Positions 38,801 through 64,000 of a stretch of DNA of 64,000 nucleotides are shown one piece after another. This DNA comes from Cephalotus follicularis (Eukaryota; Streptophyta; Magnoliopsida; Oxalidales; Cephalotaceae), in assembly GCA_001972305.1 (NCBI GenBank), contig BDDD01002880.1:46739-110738 (forward strand), written 5' to 3'. Under the pieces are notes generated by a model. That model did no database searches. It saw nothing but the letters and a program-made list of their open reading frames with translations, and had not been told where the DNA came from. How positions within the stretch are numbered: position 1 is the first letter of the stretch; each line of letters opens with the position of its first letter. The position numbers and the translations under genes are program-made.

Positions 38801-39427
38801 TGATATGGGAAAAATTCGTTTTGAACCCTTTGACACGTGGTCCGAGGGGAGCACGCCAGCTGTCCCCTAAGAGAATGATGGTCTGACCTATGGGTCTTGT
38901 CGTCAATTAAGGGAAAGGCCTCTTCTGGCACACAGAGGGTAGGAGTCTGCACGCCCTCGCAGCCATAGTTGAGGGGATAGCCCATCATCACATCAATGTA
39001 AGAGAATGGACAGACAAGCCACCATAGCCCTCCCATTCATTAATGGGCAGGCGGCTACGCACACCAAAGGGGGAGGAGTCCAAGGGGAATGTCAGGGTCA
39101 CTGACGTCCTCCCCCCAGGGGCAGCCACTCCTGATTGGACACTCATCAATCACAAGCATCTCTATAAATAAGAGAACGAAACGCAATACAGAGGTCAGCC
39201 ATTTTTTCTCTTCTTCTAACAGACAAAGAACCCATTATTCTCTGTACTGCAACTGACTTGAGCTTCGGAGTGCCCCCGAAAAAATAACCTCCTGGACCTT
39301 CTTTCACTCTCTCTTGCTTGTGCAGGGATCATCAACCCCCTTTCTCAGACAGATTCACGCATTCCCCAAATACAAATCACGCCCCTACACGCGGGGTACT
39401 GTTGTGGAAGAGATTTCCGCATCAACA
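38801..39427 (+). repeat. Tat-1 5' LTR
   Basis: 627 bp, begins tgatatggga and ends gcatcaaca. It contains a TATA box TATAAATA at 39163-39170 within tctctataaataagagaac, the presumed promoter for genomic RNA. Confidence 0.95.
39163..39170 (+). promoter_or_regulatory. TATA box of the Tat-1 LTR promoter
   Basis: TATAAATA, kept in the 3' LTR copy (49947-49954). A gattggac CAAT-like motif lies about 30 bp upstream. Confidence 0.75.
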
Positions 39428-39472: not shown

Positions 39473-42400
39473 ATGCCTCCGAGGAAGAACACTATCAACC
39501 ATTCCATAGCAAGTGGAAGCCAACCTACGGCGGGGAATGACACGGCCCAAACTAGCCAAGCCCCCCTGGGTGTCGAACAAGTCCCGGTCACGGGCGAGCA
39601 GTTTAATCGCCTATTCCAGGTGGCAGAGCGCATCACCGACTTGCTGGCCACAACTATAGCCAACCAACAGCAACAAGCCGGGCGTGTAGAGCAGGTGACC
39701 TGAGGAGTTTCCGACCCCAACCGACCAGAGGTGGAGGCACGGCGCCCACGAGGTGCTAGGCGAAACCCGTCGAGGGGAGACGAACTTCTCCTTGGGCGGT
39801 CAGGGGACAACAATCCTCTGGGAAGAAGACCCGAGATCAATGCATCTCGCCGGGCGGAGTCCTCGACCGCCCGGTATCAACCTAACGACCCCAGGAGGGC
39901 GCCTCCGGAGCGTCGGGCGATGGATATAGACCCCCAGGTGGAGGCCGGAGGCATAGAGCAGGCGCCGGCGCGCACCAACGCCTCGTGCAGAGCGGGGGCA
40001 GAGCAGGGGAGTAGGCGCGACCACACAGCCGCGGTGGCCGCGGGGTCGTGTGTTTCTAGCAGGGTCAGAAACATCGAAGATGTGGAGCAGGCAATGAACA
40101 TGAGGCTTTCGGAGGTGGAGAAAAGGCTCCAAGGAGCCGAAAAACCGAAAGGATACCTGGCGGAGGTACGTAATCTCACCGCCCATCCGTTCACAGCAGA
40201 CATCATGGCAGAGCGCATTCCTAGTGGGTTTCGGCTCCCCAGTCTCGACAAATATGACGGGTCCGCGGACCACCTCCAGCATGTCCGGACCTATATCCAA
40301 ACCATGCTAGTATGCCAGGCTTCGGACGCCACGCTCTGCCGAGGGTTCCCGTCCACATTAACCGGGGCCGCACAGTCCTGGTTCTCAGCCCTGCCCCAGA
40401 AGTCAGTTGGAGACTTTGACCAGCTTAAGGAACTGTTTGTCACCAAATTTCTGAACAGCACCACGCAGAGGCGAAACGCAACCCACCTGATCAATGTGGT
40501 GCAAGGAAGGGACGAGTCCCCGAGGGACTACCTGACCAGGTTCAACAAGGAATCCCTCACAGTGAAAGACCTAGAGCCCTCCTTCGCCATGGCTGCCCTA
40601 ATCAACGGCCTGAGGAACAACTCCTCTTTCACGTTCTCTCTCTTGAAGAGACCTGCCCTGGATATGGCCGACCTGCTGAGAAGAGCAGAGAGGTATGTGA
40701 TTGCAGAGGAAGAAATGGCGGCCAGGAGACAGAAAACCCCCTGGTCGGACCATCAGGAGGAAAGAGGAGGGCACCCCCGAAATTTCCCCGGTAAAAGGGA
40801 GAGGAAGAGGGAGAGGTCGGACCTGACCAAGGACGACCTCCGGCACAAGCTCTCCAGGAGGGAAGGCGCGGCTCAGGGGGGAGCGCCTGCCCCTTCCTAC
40901 AATCACTTCGCCCCCCTCCTGGACACCCGCACCAAGATACTGGCCATGGAGCAAGACAAGGTCCCCATTCAGTGGCCAGAGAAGTTGAGGTCCCCGGCAG
41001 AGGCAAGGGATGTGGCGAAATACTGCCGGTACCATCGTGATCATGGGCATGATACCGAGGGATGCAGACAACTGAAAAATCAGATCGAGGACCTGATCCG
41101 GAAGGGGCATTTGCGTAAGTATGTGGACAGGGAAACTCCCAGAAGGAGAAGGGAGCAGAGGAGGGAAGAGTCTCCCCATCGAGAGGAAGAACCGCAGCAA
41201 AAGCCCAGGGGTGTTATCCACACCATCTCTGGAGGGGTCGCATCTGGCGGAGACCATAAGAACGCCCGGAAGGCCTATGGAAGACAATCTCTGGCGGTAC
41301 AACAGGTCCACCACAGCAAGAGGCTAAGGACTGGGGGAGATGAGGAGGCAATATCCTTCTCCGAGGCGGACTACGAGGGAGTACGCCTCCCTCATGATGA
41401 TCCAGTGGTAGTGACCCTCATGGTAGAACTTTTCACCACCAAGAGGATCCTGATTGACAGTGGCAGCTCAGCCGACATCCTGTACAAGCACGCCTTTGAC
41501 CAGTTAAAGATACCCGTCGACCAGCTGAAGCCCGTGAAGACCCCTCTTGTCGGATTTGCGGGAGAAATGGTCAACCCCCTGGGGGCTATCGACCTATCAG
41601 TAGTGGCGGGCACGGCCCCTCGCCAAACTCAGGTACAAATAACTTTCTTGGTAGTCGACAGGCCCAGCCCATACAACGCTATAATTGGGCGCCCGGGGCT
41701 AAACCTGATGGAGGCGATAGTGTCCACGAGGCACCTGCTTATGAAGTTCCCCACGAGATTTGGGGTAGGAGAAGCCAGAGGAGACCAGCAGGCGGCCAGG
41801 CAGTGTTATAAGACAGCCGTTGCGGACCGGGGGAAAGAAAAGATCCTCCTCATCACCAATGTAGAGCTCAGGGGGGACGTCGAGCCTGAACGCCCGAGTC
41901 CCGTAGAAGACGTGGTCCAAGTGCCCCTAGAAGTGGGCAACTCCGAGAGAGTCTTCCAAGTTGGCTCACATCTCGGAGAGGCGGAGCAGGGGGAATTGAT
42001 AGCATTCCTCCGGGGCAACAGAGATGTCTTTGCCTGGTCCGCGAGGGAGGTCCCCGGGATCAATCCCAACGTAATAACTCACAGACTAAGTGTGGATCCG
42101 GCAAGGACCCCGACCAGGCAGAAGAAGAGGAATTTTGCTCCCGAGCGCCAGCAAGCAATAGCCGATGAGGTGAGCAAGCTTATACAGGCGGGATTCGTAC
42201 GGGAGCTACACTACTCTGACTGGCTGGCGAACCCCGTCCTGGTCAAAAAGGCGAACGACAAATGGAGGATGTGCATTGATTTCACGGATCTTAACAAAGC
42301 CTGCCCCAAGGATCACTTCCCTCTTCCGAAGATAGACCAACTGGTGGATGCGACCTCGGGCTACGGGGTGTTAAGCTTTTTGGACGCTTACTCGGGGTAC

Positions 42401-45127
42401 AACCAGATCCCTATGCACGAACCCGATGAGGACAAGACAGCTTTTATCACCGACCGGGGGATGTATTGTTACAGGGTCATGCCCTTCGGTTTGAAGAATG
42501 CAGGGGCCACCTACCAGCGCCTGGTCAATAAGATTTTTGAGTCCCAGATAGGGAGGAACATGGAAGTTTACGTTGATGACATGCTAGTCAAGACCCCGGG
42601 CGGCAGCCCCCACATCAAAGACCTGGGGGAGACGTTCGAGGTTCTAAGAAGGTACCAAATGAAGCTCAACCCCTCTAAGTGTACTTTTGGGGTCTCCTCG
42701 GGCAAATTCTTGGGGTTCATGGTTTCAGATAGAGGGATAGAGGCCAATCCGGAAAAGATCTCGGCAGTCCAAGAGCTAAGGCCCCCCCGGACTATCAGGG
42801 ATGTGCAAAAGCTGAGCGGGAGGATAGCGGCCCTGAGTCGGTTTGTCTCGAAATCGGCGGAGAGGTGTCTCCCGTTCTTCAGGGTGCTGAGGGACCCCAA
42901 GGGGTTTTCTTGGTCAGATGAGTGCCAAGCAGCAATCGACAAGCTGAAGGAGTACCTGGCTTCACCGCCCCTGATCTCGAAGCCTGAAAATGGCAAAAAT
43001 CTGTATCTATACCTTGCTGCCGCTCCGGGGGCCGTGAGCGCCGTTCTGGTCAGAGAGGAAGAGCAAGTTCAGAGGCCGGTGTATTACGTGAGCAAGGCGT
43101 TGAACGACGCCGAGGGGAGGTACCCGGAGGTAGAAAAGTTCGCCTATGCACTGATCATTGCGGCCCGGAAGCTGAGACCTTACTTTCAAGCTCACCCAAT
43201 CAAGGTTTTGACCGACCAGCCGCTCCGACAGGTCCTTGCAAGACCTGACACCTCGGGCAGACTGGTTAAGTGGTCGGTAGAGCTGGGCGAATATGATGTG
43301 AAGTTTGAGGCCAGACCAGCGATCAAGTCACAAGTCTTGGCTGACTTCGTTGGAGATAATACACCCACGGAGTGTATGGAGGAGAACCCCTCAGAAAGCG
43401 AGAGGGAGATCTGGATGTTATCTGTAGACGGCTCCTCCTGCCTCACGGGCAACGGCGCGGGTGTGCTCCTGGTAAGTCCAAGTGGGTGGACGTTGGAGTA
43501 TGCCCTGAGATTTGGTTTCAAGGCCACAATCAACGAAGCTGAGTGGGAAGCCCTCATAGCCGGGCTGACAATAGCAAAGCACCTGGAGGTACGGAGGATT
43601 GAGGCCTCCAGCGACTCCCAGCTAGTGGTCGGCCTGACCAGTGGAGAATACGAGCCCCGAGAGGAGTCAATGGTGAAATACCTATCACACTTCCAGGGTT
43701 TGAAGCCCACCTTCGAAGCCCTCAGTGTTACGAAAATACCCAGGGCGGAAAACGCCCGGGCGGACCAGCTATCCAAACTGGCCACGGCAGGGGAGCTGGA
43801 AAGGAACCATACCGTAATGGTACACTACCTGGACAGGCCAACCATCTCTGTAGCAGATGTCATGGACGTAGACATACCACAGAAGTCGAACTGGATGACC
43901 CCTTTTATATATTGGCTGAGGGACGGAATCTTGCCCGAAGACCCCGCGGAGGCAAGGAAATTGGTGTACAGAGCAAACAGATTTCAGCTTCGTGGGGAGG
44001 TTCTCTACAAGAGATCTTTTTCATTCCCCTGGCTGAGGTGCCTGGCCCCACAGGAGGCCGATTACGCTCTAAGGGAGGTCCACGAAGGGGTATGTGGCAA
44101 CCATACTGGGGGCAGGACGTTGTCCCACAAGCTGATAAGACAAGGCTACTATTGGCCTACCCTACACCAAGATGCAGTCGATCTAGTGAGAAGATGCGAC
44201 AACTGTCAGAGCAATGCCAACGTAAGCAGAAGACCTTCCCAACCCCTGACATCCATAACGGCCCCCTGACCCTTCGCACAATGGGGGATGGATTTCGTAG
44301 GGCCACTTCCAATGGCCACGGGACAGAGGAAATTCCTCATCGTGGCAGTAGATTATTTCACCAAGTGGGTAGAGGCGGAGCCCCTGGCCACCATCATAGA
44401 AAAGAACACGGAAAATTTCGTATGGAAGTCCATCGTTTGCAAATTCGGAGTCCCCAGGATCATAGTTTCGGATAATGGGAAATAGTTCGACTGCCAGGCT
44501 TTCCGTGACTTTTGCCAAGAATGGAGAATAGAGCATAGACTAGCCTCAGTGGCCTACCCTCAATGCAATGGCCAAGCAGAGGTAATAAATAGAGAAATCA
44601 TTTCGGGCTTGAAAAAGCGCCTGGAGGACAGCAAAGGAAGATGGACGAAGGAGCTACCGAGCGTTGTGTGGGCATACAGGACTACTCCCCGGACAACCAC
44701 GGGGGAGTCCCCTTTCAGCCTTTGCTTCGGGGCGGAGGCCATGGTACCTGTGGAAATTGGTGTCCAGTCACCAAGGGTCGTGCACTTCACAGAACAGAAT
44801 AATGAAGAGGGACTCCGGTGCCTTCTCGACCTAGTAGGAGAACTCAGAGACAAGGCCGCCATCAGAGTCACAGCCTACCAGCAGAGGGTGAGCCGTTACT
44901 AAAACAAGAGGGTGAACCCCAGACCGCTGCAGCGGGGGGATCTGGTCCTGCGTAACTCCGCGGTCTCAGACCCCACGGGGACAAGAGGGAAGCTAGCCCC
45001 TGCCTGGGAAGGGCCATACAAGATCACCAGAGTACTCCGACCCGGAACATTCAAACTCGAAACTCTGGGGGGGAGGGAGATTGCCAGAGCTTGGAATGCC
45101 GAGTATATGAGGAAATATTACCAATAG
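39473..45127 (+). pseudogene. Tat-1 gag-pol polyprotein, one frame with four stops
   Basis: A single frame runs from ATG 39473 to 45127, open except for stops at 39701 (TGA), 44267 (TGA), 44483 (TAG) and 44900 (TAA). Gag core is at about 40230-40660 (GAAQSWFSALP, DYLTRFNKESL), followed by a CHC-type CRYHRDHGHDTEGC (41023-41070). Protease has LIDSGSSADIL (41450). RT spans about 42130-42720 with VYVDDMLVK (42566). The first RNase H ends near 43350. A second, archaeal-type RNase H at 43420-43790 starts SVDGSSCLTGNGAG, a Tat hallmark. Integrase has an HHCC region (about 44070-44200, ending CDNCQ), then VDYFTKWVEAEP, VSDNGK and NGQAEVINREI, and a C-terminal part ending at 45127. No frameshift is needed, so the polyprotein decayed only by point changes. 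It is probably inactive. Confidence 0.95.
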
Positions 45128-46214: not shown

Positions 46215-48475
46215 CTAGGCCTCGTCCCCCGAGGGAATGTCCACTATCTGGGGGGTCGGGGGAGGGGCGTCCTCTTCCGTGGGAGGAGGAGGAGGAGGAG
46301 GATAGTAAGGGTGCCCGCCGGGAGGAGGAGCTGGATCACTCCCGGACGCCTGCATAGGGGCGGACTCCTCGGCCAGGATCCGCGAGAGGGGCGCAGCGTT
46401 GAAGGCCATCCCGGCAGAAGCAACAAAAGGAACGAGGTCGTGACCGTTAGGCGACCAGGGGGCGTCTCGAGTTTGGCTCTGCTCTTCGTCGTAGACCCTG
46501 AAGGCCTCGTCCTCGGCCTCCTGGACCCCCTCCGGGATGAAGTCATACTAGGCGACAGCGGGGCCGCATACGAAGGATTCCAAACGGAGGTCCGCGAAGC
46601 ACTCCACCATGTTTCGACAGGCGTAATACCCCCTACGAAAGTTGGCCGAGGACTTCTTCAGAACCTCGCGGTTAAAGTCCTCGGAGGTCTTGTATTGCTC
46701 CACGGCTTGATCCATCTCGTCCCGATACTCGGCCGAGGCTTTGAAATCAAGGACAGCCCTCTCCGCAGCGGCCCTGGCCCCGGCATCCCCAAGCTCTTGG
46801 CACTTGGCCAATTGCTTGGTCAGAGCATCGATCCGGACGTCAAGCCTGGCCGCCCGCTCGACCGAGGCGATTTTGAGCCCCCTTTCCCTGTGGGCTTCCT
46901 GGACAGCCTCCTCCTTCTCGGCCGCCAGTCTTTCCTGCGCGCCCAGCACCTCCTCCAACTGAGCGCGAGCCACAGCCAAGGACCTGCTCAGCTCCGCGTT
47001 CTCAGCCCCCAGCTGCTCATTCAGGCTGGACTCCTGGTCGGTCCTCTCCATCAGGAGATGGCCGTTGATCATAGCCTATGTAAAAGCGAAGATGTTAGTA
47101 CAAGAAACTAAGTTCAAAAAAGACAGGTTGGAGGCAAGAAGGCTTACCCGCTCGCAGCTCTGGAAGAAGCTAGTCCAGAGCTGACCCATTGTCCACTCCG
47201 CCCTCAACCCAACCTCGTGGGGAAACATGGGAGCCCTGCCCAGCTCCACGGCCACCCCCGGCGTCCTTAAGCACACGCCCGCGCGCCCAAGCTCCTCGCA
47301 TCCGCGCGCGCGGTCGCCCTCCTCTCTGACGCCCTTCGCGTCTTTTCCAGGGCCTTCCGCCTTCGCTCATCATCTCTCCTCTGGGCCTCAGGGTCCTCGG
47401 ACTGGCCCTACTCGCGCCCGGCCCTCAGCAGCTCCATGGCAGAGTTTAGTCGGGCCATCTCTGCACAAGCGAAAGGAAAACAATTAGACACAGAAAAAGT
47501 TGAACACTCGCAAAAATAAACTAGTCCTAGGAAAAGCATAGTACGGCTATCTCCGGGCAGGGCCGCGGAGGTGGCAGCTCCCTCCTGGCTGCCTTGTCCT
47601 CTCTCTCTCTGCTGCGTCCCCTGGCCCCTCTCCTCGGCATCCAACTCCAGACTGACCCGGCGGCCCACGGACATGCTCAGCCCATGCCTTCGCAGGCGGC
47701 CCTCGGACACGACCTTCTCCACGTCCTCCGGCCCCAGGGCTGAGAGCCTTGTCGCACCCTCAGCTTCTTCCCTGGACAGATATGACCTCTGGTTCAGCCG
47801 TCCGATGTCCAGGGAGTCTGCCCAAGGGCACGGCGTGAAGCCCGGGAGGTTCCTGACTAGGAAATACTTTTCCCTCCAATGCTTGATGGATTTGTTGTTC
47901 TCGGCCAGCAGTCGGGGGCGGCCCGGACGTGACTTAAAGTGGAAGCCACGCTTCTTGGGGGTGGGGGCCACGGTGTGGAACTCCTTGAATAAACCTACGG
48001 TGGGTGTCACTCCTGCTTCCATGCACCGCACAAGGAAGCCCACAATGAACCCCCAGGACTGAGCCTGCAGCATGGAGGGGTGGATCTGGTATTGCCTTAG
48101 GACGGCGATGGCGAACGGGTGCAGGGGAAGCCTAAGTCCGTGCTCCAGGGCGTCTTTAAACACCACGAAGTGCCCCGGCCGGCTCACGGTGGCATCCCGG
48201 GGGTCAGCTGGAATCTCCAAGTCCAGACCGCCAGGGATGGCGTACTCCCTGACCAGCTGCGCCAGTTTTTCTGGGCGCATGGAAGACTCTTCAAAATCGG
48301 CCCGAAAAACATGTACCCCGGCCCCAGTTGCCTCAACATTGGGGTTCCCGGCAGCGGAGGCCCCCATCTCCACCTCCATATCTAGGGGCCGGGCTGCCAC
48401 CGTAACCCCCTCGGAAGCACGGGCGATCGCTTCAGGGCATCGAAAGGGCCTCCTCGTCTGCTTTGTTCTCGCCAT
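46215..48475 (-). pseudogene. Tat-1 antisense accessory gene; product starts with a histone H3-like tail
   Basis: Three coding exons on the strand opposite to gag-pol: 48475-47545, 47460-47148 and 47075-46215, all with GT-AG borders. Exon 1 starts MARTKQTRRPF; after Met removal seven of the first eight residues equal histone H3. The rest of exon 1 (FVVFKDALEHGLRLPLHPF, QSWGFIVGFLVRCMEAGV, KKRGFHFKSRPGRP) matches the plant putative gypsy-type transposon domain. Exon 2 is Lys/Arg-rich but has frame damage. Exon 3 is a coiled coil (QLGAENAELSRSLAVARAQL) ending in a Pro-rich tail, with one in-frame TAG at 46548. The start is supported by a 5'-UTR intron (48562-48480) that removes the upstream ATGs, and by the parallel gene at 61200-63591. 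Function is unknown; a chromatin role is inferred only from the N-terminus. Confidence 0.85.
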
Positions 48476-48479
48476 TAGG

Positions 48480-48562
48480 CTGCCAGACAGAGAGGGCGAT
48501 GGAGATGAGGTGGTCATAGGAAGGCTCGAAAGAAGGGGAAAGATAAACAGAGACAGGCTCAC
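48480..48562 (-). other. 5'-UTR intron of the Tat-1 antisense gene
   Basis: Minus strand GTGAGCCTG ... TCTGGCAG, 83 bp, ending four bases before the ATG of MARTKQT. The same layout occurs at 61093-61199 in the second element. It contains the ATGs that would otherwise lengthen the frame upstream by 29 codons. Confidence 0.7.
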
Positions 48563-48685
48563 CTTTTTCCTTGCGTTCTGGAGAAGATGAAGGTAAGGTT
48601 TCTTGGGGATCAGGAGCTTTTCTCTATCTCTAAGGCTTTTAGGGATTATGGGTGCGTAAAGAGTCTCTTTGGGGAAGAAAAGGGG

Positions 48686-48693
48686 TATTTAAA
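48686..48693 (-). promoter_or_regulatory. TATA-like box of the Tat-1 antisense gene
   Basis: Minus strand CCTTTAAATACCCC, about 125 bp upstream of the 5'-UTR intron. The relative at 60939-60946 has TATAAAAG in the same place, so the antisense gene appears to have its own promoter. Confidence 0.6.
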
Positions 48694-49046: not shown

Positions 49047-49313
49047 NNNNNNNNNNNNNNNNNNNNNNNNNNNNNNNNNNNNNNNNNNNNNNNNNNNNNN
49101 NNNNNNNNNNNNNNNNNNNNNNNNNNNNNNNNNNNNNNNNNNNNNNNNNNNNNNNNNNNNNNNNNNNNNNNNNNNNNNNNNNNNNNNNNNNNNNNNNNNN
49201 NNNNNNNNNNNNNNNNNNNNNNNNNNNNNNNNNNNNNNNNNNNNNNNNNNNNNNNNNNNNNNNNNNNNNNNNNNNNNNNNNNNNNNNNNNNNNNNNNNNN
49301 NNNNNNNNNNNNN
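49047..49313. other. Assembly gap (267 N)
   Basis: Undetermined bases. The gap borders a tandem-repeat array, which probably caused it. Frames reported across it are meaningless. Confidence 1.
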
Positions 49314-49520
49314 CTTCACCTGGCCTGCCCAGGCACGCTCAACGCGTCAGCCCGGGAGGAGCCCGCGGCCAAGTCTTCACCCTTCACCTGGCCTGCCCAG
49401 GCACGCTCAACGCGTCAGCCCGGGAGGAGCCCGCGACCTGGTCTCAACCCTTCACTTGGCATACCCGAACACGATCGACGCGCCAGCCTGGGAGGAGCAC
49501 GCGAAACAATCCCAATTTTT
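49314..49520. repeat. 68-bp minisatellite in the Tat-1 3' region
   Basis: Copies begin cttcacctggcctgcccagg at 49314 and 49382 and cttcacttggcatacccgaa at 49450, a 68-bp period with the last copy most diverged. The array probably continues into the N gap on its left. Tandem arrays in this part of the element are a known trait of the Tat lineage. Confidence 0.9.
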
Positions 49521-49584: not shown

Positions 49585-50211
49585 TGATATGGGAAAAATT
49601 CGTTTTGAACCCATTGACACGTGGTCCGAGGGGAGCACGCCAGCTGTCCCCTAAGAGAATGATGGTCTGACCTATGGGTCTTGTCGTCAATTAAGGGAAA
49701 GACCTCTTCTGGCACACAGAGGGTAGGAGTCCGCACGCCCGCGCAGCCATAGTTGAGGGGATAGCCCATCATCACATCAATGTAAGAGAATGGACAGACA
49801 AGCCACCAAAGCCCTCCCATTCGTTAATGGGCAGGCGGCTACGCACACCAAAGGGGGAGGAGTCCAAGGGGAATGTCAGGGCCACTGACGTCCTCCCCCC
49901 AGGGGCAGCCACTCCTGATTGGACACTCATCAATCACAAGCATCTCTATAAATAAGAGAACGAAACGCAATACATAGGTCAGCCATTTTTTCTCTTCTTC
50001 TAACAGACAAAGAACCCATTATTCTCTGTACTGCAACTGACTTGAGCTTCGGAGTGCCCCCGGGAGAATAACCTCCTGGACCTTCTTTCACTCTCTCTTG
50101 CTTGTGCAGGGATCATCAACCCCCTTTCTCGGACAGATTCACGCATTCCCCAAATACAAATCAAGCCCCTACACGTGGGGTACTGTTGTGGAAGAGATTT
50201 CCGCATCAATA
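49585..50211 (+). repeat. Tat-1 3' LTR
   Basis: 627 bp, same length as the 5' LTR. Ends gcatcaata where the 5' copy ends gcatcaaca, then the target duplication acatg. Confidence 0.95.
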
Positions 50212-50418: not shown

Positions 50419-51387
50419 TGTTGATACAGAGATCCTTCTCTTAACAGTATCCTACGTAGATGACTTTTATTTGTTAAGAGAAACGCTTGTCAACGGATGC
50501 CTTGAGGAAGAAGTTGATCTCGGACACCTGCACAAGGTAACAACAATGGTGGAAGTCCAGGAGGTTGTTCTCCCGGGGACACTCCGACGCTCAAGTTAGA
50601 CAAGATGCAGGTGAAATAATGCTATCTTGAATGTAAAAATTGCTGACCTTTGTTCAGTATGTTGAACTTGTATTTATAGTGGTGTTTTGTAACTGATTGA
50701 GCATGAAGTTCGGAATTGATGGCTGTCCCCTAAGGAAATTCCGAGGATCTCGGGATTTCCCTTATCTCCACCTGAGTTATCTCTTCTTTCCTTTATCGTC
50801 TCCTTAATTATCTCCTTTCCTTTGTTGTAGTTGATCAGGATTCTATCTCCTTGTTTAGATAAGTGTAGATCCCGTGAAATCTGTTGAAGTTAATCCCCTT
50901 ATCCCATAGATAAGGTTGAGGTCCTCCGTTTGCAGGACTATTGGAGGTACTGATTATAACACTGCAGCCGAGGTCATGGTCTTCATTGGTCCGAGAAGAA
51001 AGGTAGTTTGGATACGTCCGAGGAGGAGCTTGATAGTTTCTGTGTAGTGAATGTCTCATGTTCCATGTCTGGTAGGTTCTCTGAGCCGAGGGAGTCCTCG
51101 GCAAAGTTGCTTCAAATGATATCATCGGACATGATGCCAAGGAGGATGAACTTTGTATTACAATTATTGGGTCGGTCCTCGACACTTGTGCCGAAGAGAA
51201 CGACGTACTGGAATAACTGGCTGTGTCCTCGGCACTTAGCCGAGGAGAAGTCCTCCTTATATCGCCTTTTTGTTAGACAACAGGTTTCCTCTGCCTTTAA
51301 TTCATCAATCGTTGTCACTTTGGACATCTGGCTGCGCTTGCATAGGACACGTGTTACTTTTGATTTAACTTAATTTTTCCCATATCA
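50419..51387 (-). mobile_element. Solo LTR of a Tat-type gypsy element (969 bp)
   Basis: Plus strand begins tgttgatacagagatcc and ends aatttttcccatatca, the inverse of the TGATATGGGAAAAATT...TATCAACA LTR ends. It closely resembles the LTR at 59607-60531. The 5-bp flanks are ggcat (50414-50418) and ggtat (51388-51392), a target duplication with one change. Confidence 0.88.
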
Positions 51388-59606: not shown

Positions 59607-60531
59607 TGTTGATACAGAAATCCTTCTCTCAACAGTATCCTACGTGGAGGACTTTGATTTGTAGAGAGAAACGCTTGTCACTGAATGTCTTAAGGAAGAG
59701 TCTGATCTCGGACGCCTGCACAAGTAGCAACTATGGTGAAGGCCCAGGAGGTTGTTCTCCCGGGGACACTCCGACGCTCAAGTTAGTCAAGTGCAGATGA
59801 AATATTATACTCTCTTCAATGTAAAAATTGCTGACCTTTGTTCAGTGTGTTGAACTTGTATTTATAGTGGAACTTTGTAACTGATAGAGCGTGAAAGTCA
59901 GATGTGATGGCTGTCCCCTAAGGAAATTCCGAGGATCTCGGGATTTCCCTTATCTCCACCTGTATTTTCTCTTCTTTCCTTTGTTGTAGTTGATCAGGAT
60001 TCTATTTCCTTGTTTAGATAAGTCTAGATCCCGTGAAATCTGTTGAAGTTAATCTCCTTATCTTATCTTCCATATTTGTTGATGGTCATCCTTATCTTCT
60101 TAGAAGATAAGAATCCCTTGAATTTGGGCTAACTCTTTGTCCTCATTCCGTAAATGAGGAGGAGGCCTTCTGTCCGAGGAGAGGAGCTGCTGTGAGGCTA
60201 ATGAGATGATCAGCACTTGGCTTCTAAATCTTCCTCTTGCGCAGATATGCACTTGAAATAGATGGCGTGTTATGTCGCCGAGGGTGTCCTCAGCTAGGTC
60301 GTTTCAAATGGTGTCCTCGGACCTGGATCCGAGGAGAATAATGTTTGTACTGGAAACATCGGGTGTGTCCTCAGCACTTATGCTGAGGAAGAATCCTCCT
60401 TTTACCACTGTTTTTTTGGTGTACATGCTTCCTCTGCCTTTAATTCATTAATTCTTATCTCTTTGGACACTTGGCAATGTGATCAAGAGGACACGTGTTG
60501 CTTTGAATTTGACTTAATTTTTCCCACATCA
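59607..60531 (-). repeat. Tat-2 3' LTR (925 bp)
   Basis: Plus strand starts tgttgatacag and ends aatttttcccacatca, followed by tatgcccccctggtcc (inverse polypurine tract). It is highly similar to the solo LTR at 50419-51387. The left target sequence would be aatac; the right end is outside the window. Confidence 0.9.
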
Positions 60532-61199
60532 TATGCCCCCCTGGTCCTTGTTCTCTGACCCTGGTCAGAGGAGAAGGAGCAGAGTTGAGAGCCGTAGCCC
60601 AGGCCATCCACCTCTGCTGAGCTTGCTATTAATCCTCCTGCTATGCACCAGCCGAGAACAAAGACTTTGTATTATATTTTTTTGAAGAATGTAGAAATAT
60701 TGCACGTGCCTGGGCAGAGGATCAGAGCTGCCCCCCTGTCTTCTCATTTCCCATCCGTTGGTCCTCGTGCTTTGAATCCTCATCATTACCCCTAAGTAAC
60801 GTATCAAACTCACTTAACACATGGCACCAGCAGAGCGTTTCCCGCCTCTGTCGCTTCGTTTCCCGCGCTTGGAATGTCGGTTGGTTTCTTGACCATTGAA
60901 TCTTCACTAGATGGAGGGCCAGGATTAGATCTAGGGTCTATAAAAGAAACCCTAGATCACTAAGCCACTCTTTTACGCTTTCTTGCTCTCTTGCTTTCTT
61001 GCTTTCTTGCTTTCTTGCTAATACCAGAGAATCTCCAAGACCCACAGTTCTTCAAACCTCGTTTCTTCGCCTTTTAATCATCTTCAACCAAAGTAAGTTG
61101 TTGATCTTTGTAAGTTGTTGATCTTTATACTGTTCTTGAACTGATTCTTGTCTTTCCTTTTCCCTTTTTCTTTCATCTCTCTTGTTTCCTTCGACATAG
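60532..61199 (+). promoter_or_regulatory. Promoter, leader and 5'-UTR intron of the Tat-2 antisense gene
   Basis: A clear TATA box, TATAAAAG (60939-60946), is followed by a pyrimidine-rich leader with a run of ttgctttc repeats (60978-61020). A 5'-UTR intron follows at 61093-61199 (GTAAGTTG ... GACATAG), ending directly before the ATG. This is a complete plant-type promoter and leader on the strand opposite to the element's gag-pol. Confidence 0.75.
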
Positions 61200-63591
61200 A
61201 TGGCTAGGACAAAACGTACCGCTAGGGTTTCTCCTCCCCTGGAGGTTGAACCCTTGGCTATGGTGATCCCCCCTACTGAGGGTCCCTCTGTTGAGAGTCC
61301 CCTCCCCTCTGAGGGTAGCTTGGGGGCTGCTGTGGGTGAACCTGTTATCCCTGAGACCGAGGCTGACTCCTCTGCCCCTGATGGCTTTGGTGTCAGTGCT
61401 CTCTCAGAGGAGGAGGTAGTTGAACTAACCACCAGGTTCAACTTCCCCTCTGGGCTGAGATTCCAACTCCCTAAGGACCCTCGGATGGTCACCAAGAGTA
61501 AAAAGGGCATTTTCGTTGTCTTCGAAGGGGCTCTTACTCATGGTTTGAGGATCCCCATTCCTAACTTTGCTTTGTCAATTTTGGAGACATTCCAAGTCCA
61601 CCCTTCTCTTCTCCAACCCCAGTCGTGGAGTTTTATAATAGGATTTCTCGTTAAGTGTCTCGAGTCCGAGGTGACTGCCACAATGGGATTGTTCCAACAA
61701 TTTCACGTCATCTCTTCCTCGCCAGGGAAACGTGGCTTCTTCTTTAAATCACGTTCTGGTATTGCCAAAATTCTCACCAAACCAACCCAATCAATCAAAC
61801 ACTAGAAGACCAAGTATTTCCTCATAAAGAACTTCGAGGGGTTCGTTTCTCCCGTGTGGTGTGACTCCTTGGACACCACACGTCTTAACAGGAGGCCCAC
61901 TTTGACCGCGGCCGAGGACCTGGACCTCAGTAAGCTTATCCAACTGGTGCCTGAGGAGGTGAACTCCGTGGTTGCCGAGGAGCGTCTGGTCCGAGCTGGA
62001 CTAAGTGTGGCTCCGAGACAGGGGTCACACTCGGCCGTGGTCGAGGAAGCCTCAGGGGGCGAAAGGTCCCCTGCTCAATCCCTGCCCCAAGAGATGGGGG
62101 AAAACTGTATAAAGCTTTCATCTCCTCCGTCTTACTTTTTGTCTACGCATTTCTTTCTAACTTGATTAATTTTGAATTACTAACGCTTTTTAACCTCTGT
62201 CTGTGCAGCTATGTCTTCTCGGAGAGGATTCAACACTCTGTTCTCTGCATGCAAGGCCTCCAAGTCTTCATCTGTCATTGCTGCAGAGAAGCAAAAGGAA
62301 GCCGAGATGGACGCCAGGCGAAAGGTTGCCGTGGAAGTGGCTAGGAAAAAACTTGCTGAGGAGGAGGCAGCCAAGAAAAAGGCTGCAGAGGGGGCCAAGC
62401 AAAGGGCCAAAGATGCCTTGGTTGGGGCCAAGCAGCTAAAGAAAAAAGGGGTTACATCCAAGGGGAAGGGCTCCAAGCGCCCTGGCAAGGAGCGCTCCTC
62501 TGACAAGCTTACCAGTAAAAGGGGGAGGCTCATCACTGGGTCCGAGATGGACTCCATCCTTGGACGTGCTGAGGACGTCCCCATCGTCTTGCCCCCCTCT
62601 CGGGACGTGGGGAGGATGATCAAGGAGCTAGAGGGGGTCGGGATTGGCTCCTCTAGCCTAAACACTCAAGGGGTGCCCTTTGCCCTTAGCTCGCTCTGTA
62701 TGTTCCCGGACGAGTTGAAAGCAAAGGAAGAATGGTCTAGCAAAGACCTTGTACACAACTGCCTTCGAAGCCAATTCGAGGTAAATGAAGATCCTCCTCT
62801 TGTACAATTTATACTTGTGTTTTCTGTTCTAACTTCATTCTTCTCTGCAGGCTTTGAATAACAACCACCTTTTGGTTGAAAACTACTCCATCATTTTGGA
62901 GAGGAATGACAAGCTGAGGCTGGAGGTGATGGAGGAGAAGGAGACTTCTCGGATCGCCAAGGCACAATTGGAGGAGGTCTTGAAGGCTCAAGAATCCACT
63001 GTTGAGGAGAGGAACAAGGCCGTTCTGGAGAAGGACGAGGCCCAAAAGGAGCTTGCTAAAGCTCAATATCTGTTCAAGTCCTTGCAAAAGCAGCACGAGG
63101 ATACTTTGAGGAGGTATGAAGAGGCCATGAAGAGGAGAAAACCAAGGCCGTGAAGGATGCCCTCGATGAGTTTAGGTCCTCGGACGAGTTCATAAGTCTG
63201 ATGGAGGCCTCCGTAGAGGACTTCAAGGCTTCTGATGCCTTTGGCGAGCAGATCGTCAAAGAATCTGCTGAGAACTATCGCCGAGGGTTCTATACTTGCA
63301 AAAACTGGGTCCAGGCTTTGCACCCGGAGGTTCCCCTGGACGACATCGCCTTTTGCTCGGCTGCTCAGGCCTTCGATTTTTATCCAGATGGATACGAGGC
63401 TGAATAGGAGAAAGCCGAGGAGGCCTTGGCCAGGTACACTGGGCAAGAAGTTGAAGTGGCACCCGAAGCTGAGCTTGGCCGCGAGGATCCTGCCTCAGAG
63501 ACTACCATTCCTCCTCCTCCTCAAACTGAACCTGTTGTGCCTCCTGCTCCCGAGGATGACACCTCTGCTGATCCTTCAACCTTAGCTTAGC
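61200..63591 (+). pseudogene. Tat-2 antisense accessory gene; product starts MARTKRTAR
   Basis: Exons 61200-62106, 62209-62780 and 62851-63591, with GT-AG borders and the same phases as in Tat-1 (phase 1 then phase 0 here). The ATG follows a splice acceptor whose TAG is also an in-frame stop, so MARTKRTAR is the certain N-terminus. Exon 1 carries FVVFEGALTHGLRIPIPNF and QSWSFIIGFLVKCLESEV (gypsy-type transposon domain). Exon 2 is Lys-rich (KKKAAEGAKQRAKDALVGAK; KGKGSKRPGKER), with nuclear-signal-like clusters. Exon 3 is a coiled coil (LERNDKLRLEVMEEKETS; AQKELAKAQYLFKSLQKQ) with a Pro-rich end. It is broken by a TAG at 61803, a frameshift near 63130 and a TAG at 63405. Role unknown; possibly nuclear and chromatin-associated. 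Confidence 0.85.
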
Positions 63592-64000
63592 TTTCTCTCT
63601 CTTTTTTGTTGCAGTAACCTTCTCCTTTCCAGTACTTGTAATTTTTCTCATATGAATAAAGGGAACTTTTTTCGCATCCTCTGCTATCTTTACTTTTTTT
63701 GCACTACAGACTTGTGGTGGTTGCACTTAGCATATAAGTTTATAATTCCCTTAGGGATTTTGTCACTTGGGACCTCTGACTTCTCGTAGAAGCAGACACT
63801 CCTCCAAAGTGACTTAAAAGTCACTTAAGGAATATTAAAAGTGAACCTTTAGTAATTTCTTCCAAGCACTAATAAAAGAACTTCCTTTCTATGGACTTAG
63901 GATTGAACTTTTCTTGTTGTGATTAATCTTTGCATTGTTGCGCTCATTAATAATTCCCTTAGGAATTTTGGTCTTCATGGTACTCTCGGACTTCTCCCAT
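63592..64000 (+). terminator. 3' UTR of the antisense gene and start of the Tat-2 spacer
   Basis: A poly(A) signal AATAAA lies at about 63655 after a T-rich stretch. Two similar segments containing ataattcccttagg(g/a)attttg at about 63741 and 63950 suggest a roughly 209-bp tandem repeat running past the window end. Confidence 0.6.

Follow-up and report, generated by a model that had tools for sequence, protein, structure and literature searches.

An H3-like N-terminus conserved on the antisense Transposase_28 proteins of Cephalotus retrotransposons

Does the antisense gene of an LTR retrotransposon in Cephalotus follicularis encode a protein that imitates the tail of histone H3? The question arises from a stretch of 64,000 nucleotides (the window), in which an earlier note, made from the sequence alone, read the antisense protein of the element Tat-1 as starting MARTKQTRR and as matching H3 at residues 1-6 and 8. 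Both readings hold. The minus strand from 48475 to 48449 reads ATG GCG AGA ACA AAG CAG ACG AGG AGG, and comparison with the H3 tail printed as ARTKQTARKSTGG in the available text of PMC3022755 gives 7/8 identical residues, namely 1-6 and 8. The chance that one random N-terminus matches H3 in at least 7/8 positions is about 1e-8 to 3e-8 under a composition model with two compositions, one of them typed from recall; this figure applies to a single tail and leaves the many other noticeable tails uncounted, so conservation is the better test.

Table 1. Positions of the features in the window
Feature	Position	Strand	Remarks
5' LTR	38801..39424	+	TG...CA ends
gag-pol frame	39731..44269	+	gag, RT, RT_RNaseH, RVT_3, integrase zinc-binding domain (Pfam)
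Downstream exon candidate	46548..47072	-	long charged frame, coiled-coil-like by eye; Pfam match below cut-off only
Antisense open frame from the ATG of the H3-like start	47408..48475	-	355 aa
Transposase_28 (PF04195) domain	47969..48166	-	residues 104-169, E 1.2e-12
H3-like N-terminus MARTKQTRR, family A	48449..48475	-	read from sequence
Predicted 5'-UTR intron, family A	48480..48562	-	83 bases, GTGAGC...GGCAG, ends 4 bases before ATG
Predicted TATA-like box TTTAAATA and exon 1, family A	48563..48693	-	no ATG within
Tandem array	49314..49504	.	68-bp unit, 2.8 copies; adjoins assembly gap
3' LTR	49585..50208	+	TG...CA ends
TATAAAA box, family B antisense gene	60939..60945	+	prediction
Predicted 5'-UTR intron, family B gene	61093..61199	+	GTAAGT donor at 61093 or 61110; ATAG directly before ATG
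H3-like N-terminus MARTKRTAR, family B	61200..61226	+	second antisense gene in window
Second antisense frame to first stop	61200..61805	+	201 aa; Transposase_28 residues 106-170

The element in the window is a Ty3/gypsy retrotransposon, in which a Pfam scan finds gag, RT, RNase H and integrase domains in this order between LTRs with TG...CA ends (Table 1). RT_RNaseH lies at residues 1089-1188 and RVT_3 at residues 1233-1350 of the gag-pol frame, so a second RNase H is present, and an RVT_3 domain after RT_RNaseH is a mark of the Tat lineage. The antisense Transposase_28 gene is placed between pol and the 3' LTR. By its sequence, the element is of the Tat/Retand type. The two LTRs differ by 15 mismatches over 628 aligned bases (K2P 0.024), and no clear direct duplication of the target site is visible by eye at their ends. 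No integrase core domain was found with Pfam in the frame 39731-44269, which was the part searched, and because this frame stops at 44269, shortly past the integrase zinc-binding domain, the pol of the window copy may be defective. A possibly defective pol contrasts with the young LTRs of the same element. The 68-bp tandem array sits between the predicted antisense promoter and the 3' LTR; it adjoins an assembly gap of N (49047-49313), so that its 2.8 copies are those of the assembly and the real number may differ.

The antisense gene of Tat-1 belongs to a family that we call A, and another antisense gene of the window, which represents family B, also has an H3-like start; the two are 45% identical over residues 1-269. 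The last part of the 355-aa frame of Tat-1 probably runs through an intron. Among the five antisense frames scanned, PF04195 is the only domain above the Pfam cut-off, and a histone fold was not found.

The 1.58-Gb Cephalotus assembly was searched for relatives of these genes, and the matches number at least 114 for family A, at least 150 for family B and at least 146 for a third family, C. Starts were read in 40 copies of family A (41 copies, from which the frame-shifted L062 was dropped) and in 39 copies of family B, window copies included. The counts for these two families lean to kept tails, because their queries contain the tail and most of the loci were among the best-scoring ones. Family A keeps A1 in 38, R2 in 39, T3 and K4 in all 40, Q5 in 38 (the two others being stops), and T6 and R8 in 39 copies, with R in 29 and K in 11 at position 7. 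Family B keeps A1 and T3 in all 39, R2, K4, A7 and R8 in 38 and T6 in 37 copies, where L053, with one codon lost in the tail, is counted as it stands. Position 5 in family B is R in 32 copies, L and C in 2 each, and Q, I and T in 1 each; L048 of this family reads ARTKQTAR exactly.

Family C was sampled blind to the tail. The query for it, P0006, covers only sequence well past the tail, so that the selection of matches was independent of the tail, and 40 of the at least 146 matches were taken in two batches of 20 picked before any starts were seen; the second of these batches came from the matches of lower similarity. Starts were placed by DNA alignment to the reference copies L083, L095 and L097, themselves among the placed copies; this gave a start in 38/40 copies (L098 and L121 have no aligned start), and since the tail codons belong to the reference stretch, copies whose tail is entirely different could have been missed at this step. 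In the 38 placed copies, K4 is kept in 37, T6 in 36, Q5 in 35, R8 in 33, A1 and T3 in 31 each, and R2 in 30. The substitutions include T3 to V, R2 to K, and A1 to P or V, each in 6 copies, and position 7 is K in 21, A in 9, S in 7 and V in 1. Likeness to ARTKQTAR is 8/8 in 4 copies, 7/8 in 11, 6/8 in 19, 5/8 in 3 and 4/8 in 1; L107, one of the four exact copies, has ATA instead of ATG. Across the families, position 7 is R, K, A, S or V and is free, and this, together with R5 in most of family B, makes the match to H3 incomplete in most families. The earlier note had proposed to align the N-termini of related elements and to look for random first residues; within the related elements of this one genome, the first residues are kept, their neighbours are not, and random starts were not found.

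The comparison of codons locates this conservation. The pN/pS ratio in family C is 0.22 over codons 2-7, 0.31 over codons 2-9 and 0.62 over codons 10-40, while pS is 0.585 for codons 2-9 versus 0.530 for codons 10-40. The tail value is below that of codons 10-40 in 60/60 bootstraps over copies, which are related to each other, so that this is not a formal probability. We also compared five representatives, namely both genes of the window and three family C copies with an open frame, those three chosen with knowledge of their tails. Pairwise agreement among them is 56/60 at residues 2-7, 205/498 at residues 10-60 and 468/660 in the Transposase_28 stretch. Their codons 2-7 show 37 synonymous versus 4 non-synonymous differences, or 41 third-position versus 4 first- or second-position differences, and these synonymous differences indicate a constraint on the peptide and not on the DNA. 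In a tree calculated with the tail left out for 58 copies (10 of 30 from family A, 10 of 30 from family B and 38 from family C), the branch to family B measures 1.11 changes per column and that to family A 0.58, and the tail is kept across both. One branch (99/99) sets apart the four exact ARTKQTAR copies together with L100 (AMTKQTVR), and another (99/97) the six family C copies with V3 (L105, L108, L110, L111, L112 and L117). The change from R2 to K arose at least twice separately in family C. On these comparisons, the start is held at the protein level while its surroundings turn over. The tail sequence, its conservation in one genome and the protein-level constraint are observed directly, as is the gene architecture as far as the sequence gives it.

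Exposure of the tail would depend on where translation begins. The window copy of family A has one in-frame upstream ATG, 14 codons up, inside the predicted intron 48562-48480. The claim that the upstream ATGs lie within a 5'-UTR intron therefore stands for the predicted spliced message of this copy, whose first ATG is that of the H3-like start; it does not extend to 14/41 family A copies in which the acceptor AG is gone (4 of L001-L030 and 10/11 family A copies in L061-L080). These 14 copies, mostly of a MARTKQTKR subgroup, retain the upstream in-frame ATG, so that 14 additional residues might precede and bury their tail. In L001-L030, the donor GGTGAGC is present in 29/30 and the acceptor GCAG in 26/30 loci, and indels put the upstream ATG out of frame in two of the 30 (L006 and L008). 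Family B has the GTAAGT donor in 30/30 loci and AG before the ATG in 28/30, and the predicted exon 1 of its window copy contains no ATG. In 29/30 family B loci, the codon just ahead of the ATG is an in-frame TAG or TAA, so the N-terminus cannot be extended there from unspliced RNA. The start codon of family C is ATG in 32/38 copies and lost in 6/38. Within the 200-256 upstream bases examined, 32/38 placed copies have no in-frame Met, and L111, L122 and L123 have no upstream stop, which makes a Met further up possible in these three. AG directly precedes the ATG in 16/38 family C copies, and a GGTGA donor string lies about 100 bases upstream in 25/38. In both window genes and in part of family C, the predicted intron thus reaches the ATG or stops a few bases short of it. 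The position of the 5'-UTR intron looks homologous between far-apart families, and a free ARTK end is plausible if, as we infer, this intron is spliced out. The start architecture speaks for such an end in family B and in much of family C, and the 14/41 family A copies without the acceptor AG speak against it.

What such an end might do can be framed as follows. On balance, we lean towards the reading that the antisense Transposase_28 protein carries a selected mimic of H3 residues 1-8, a free and unstructured end that would engage host H3-tail proteins against silencing. Met before Ala is normally removed, and since the first six residues are those of H3, co-translational processing should resemble that of H3. 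Removal of Met would expose ARTK[Q/R]TxR on a protein that also has a Transposase_28 domain and a coiled-coil-like region. Most likely, the exposed tail would then be bound by host factors specific for the H3 N-terminus, either PHD-type readers (for instance of the UHRF1/VIM class) or H3K4 modifiers; this could take place on the DNA of the element itself or titrate these factors away, and silencing of the element might be weakened or its transcription favoured. An AlphaFold model of weak confidence (mean pLDDT 54.3) has residues 6-59 under 50 and is more ordered from about residue 61, a pattern that fits what a tail would need. The variation would limit the partners that fit: K4, T6, Q5 and R8 are the most constant positions in family C, and family B is variable at position 5. 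Some of the changes that family C shows at A1, R2 and T3 would not be accepted by several H3K4 readers.

The same conservation could have other causes. The tail might have been selected for nuclear or nucleolar targeting, as a basic N-terminus that contacts RNA or DNA, or for N-terminal stability, the likeness to H3 being incidental, which we consider unlikely. The tail is basic, K and R are exchanged at position 7 and at R2, and the product of the maize Grande antisense gene is reported as nuclear in the available text of PMC7264820; however, a signal of charge only would not keep T3 in 31/38, Q5 in 35/38 and T6 in 36/38 family C copies, and it would not give an exact 8/8 match to H3 in one clade. 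A mitotic or centromeric mimic, with ARTK serving as a substrate of Haspin or as an imitation of CENH3 that tethers the products to mitotic chromosomes or centromeres, appears improbable. Haspin is the H3T3 kinase, and T3 is present in 40/40 copies of family A and 39/39 of family B; in family C, moreover, the tail of L105 is ARVKHTAR, reminiscent of plant CENH3 starts. Plant CENH3, too, can begin MARTK, as poplar CENH3 does with MARTKHPVARK... (PMC11288735, available text), but Q5 and T6 of the tail agree with H3 and not with poplar CENH3, and the well supported V3 clade of family C has lost the phospho-acceptor, which disfavours a role of phosphorylated T3.

Two further explanations invoke no function of the peptide. 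If a host H3 gene fragment had been captured once, the tail could be an inherited relic, and one family C clade and L048 of family B do match H3 1-8 exactly. We regard a mere relic as very improbable and rejected it, since it would decay like the following 30 codons, yet the pN/pS of the tail is half theirs, and no clear likeness to H3 is seen by eye past residue 8. To a constraint on DNA or RNA, such as a splice acceptor or start context that happens to keep the tail codons, we give next to no credence: the motif does lie at or close behind the predicted splice acceptor, but third positions vary (41 versus 4) and pS in the tail is no lower than in the codons that follow. This explanation was rejected as largely refuted by the synonymous differences.

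For the reading as a selected H3-tail mimic, several known systems offer comparisons. Histone-tail mimicry is already known, and its carrier here, the antisense protein of a plant LTR retrotransposon, seems to be new. The antisense protein shares with histone H3 residues 1-6 and 8 in the window copy, and all of residues 1-8 in five copies, four of them from family C and one from family B; it differs in that its body is Transposase_28, with no Pfam histone domain and no clear likeness past residue 8. The histone-mimic tail of influenza NS1 is C-terminal, and VANDAL elements are DNA transposons. According to the available text of PMC12704277, the PHD finger of UHRF1 recognises H3 1-ARTK-4 and PAF15 1-VRTK-4, which means that a maintenance-methylation factor can read such an N-terminus on a protein other than a histone. 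PAF15 is a cellular precedent in carrying H3-like residues (VRTK) at its very N-terminus, but it is a host replication factor of an animal system, and its likeness is shorter. The H3-like tail of NS1 from influenza A H3N2 acts against PAF1C (PMC10222983, available text) and is likewise a parasite-encoded tail directed at host chromatin machinery, but on another protein and in an RNA virus of animals. VANC of Arabidopsis VANDAL, an anti-silencing protein encoded by a transposon, often has tandem repeats of its element as targets, and the element here also contains a tandem array, of 68-bp units; VANC is a different protein from a different kind of transposon, and the available text mentions no H3-like tail (PMC5735166). 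The UHRF1/PAF15, NS1 and VANC precedents and the 68-bp array together favour an H3-tail mimic anchored to DNA, for which the anchoring relies on a DNA-binding role of Transposase_28 predicted in the available text of PMC11963269. In a more specific form, which we offer tentatively and hold to be doubtful, the protein would be a dedicated antisense chromatin effector that joins the H3 1-8 mimic to sequence-specific binding of Transposase_28 to the element's own tandem repeats and diverts the H3-tail machinery, an old and possibly widespread counterpart of VANC. If true, it would be old enough for families about one substitution per site apart to have it in common, and it might be widespread in flowering plants.

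The Retand TRP28 proteins resemble the protein described here: their gene is antisense and lies between pol and the 3' LTR, they carry PF04195, and about half of the Retand elements have tandem arrays in this part of the element. A regulatory role has been proposed for these proteins, which differ from the one here in that the available text of these accounts mentions no H3-like N-terminus (PMC11963269, PMC7264820). The antisense TRP28 domain occurs in 97% of recently active Retand clusters, and its function is given as unknown in the available text (PMC11963269); a selected H3-like tail would be a concrete lead to the role of this near-universal protein and would extend histone mimicry to retrotransposons as an answer to host silencing. 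The earlier note knew of no H3-like tail on a transposon protein, and none is described in the literature that we searched by titles and abstract openings, with subscription papers and preprints mostly outside it. Protein searches with the antisense protein (6 among the best 7,999 candidates) and with the family profile (14 among the best 8,000) returned only Cephalotus matches, and distant plant relatives may have been missed by both. A search with residues 1-60 alone gave no match at E up to 10 among 50 candidates, and the viral contigs and prokaryote genomes scanned contained no relatives. Against the PDB, the tail sequence gave only 2 weak, unrelated matches, and profile A1 gave 8 matches (E 0.15 to 0.82), none of them a relative.

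Several minor observations concern the annotation and the surroundings of the two genes. None of the 12 Cephalotus gene models read (P0002-P0012 and P0014, of 14 deposited) begins with an H3-like tail; where the deposited models of these antisense proteins could be aligned, they start at a residue inside the protein. Behind the Transposase_28 frame of family B, at 62211-63600, there are K/E-rich open stretches that look coiled-coil-like by eye and match the place of the Tat-1 frame 46548-47072. Two LTR-like stretches in the same orientation, at 50419-51387 and 59607-60531, are 77 to 85% alike in pieces. The former lies just behind the 3' LTR of Tat-1 and is possibly a lone LTR, and the latter lies close before the family B antisense gene.
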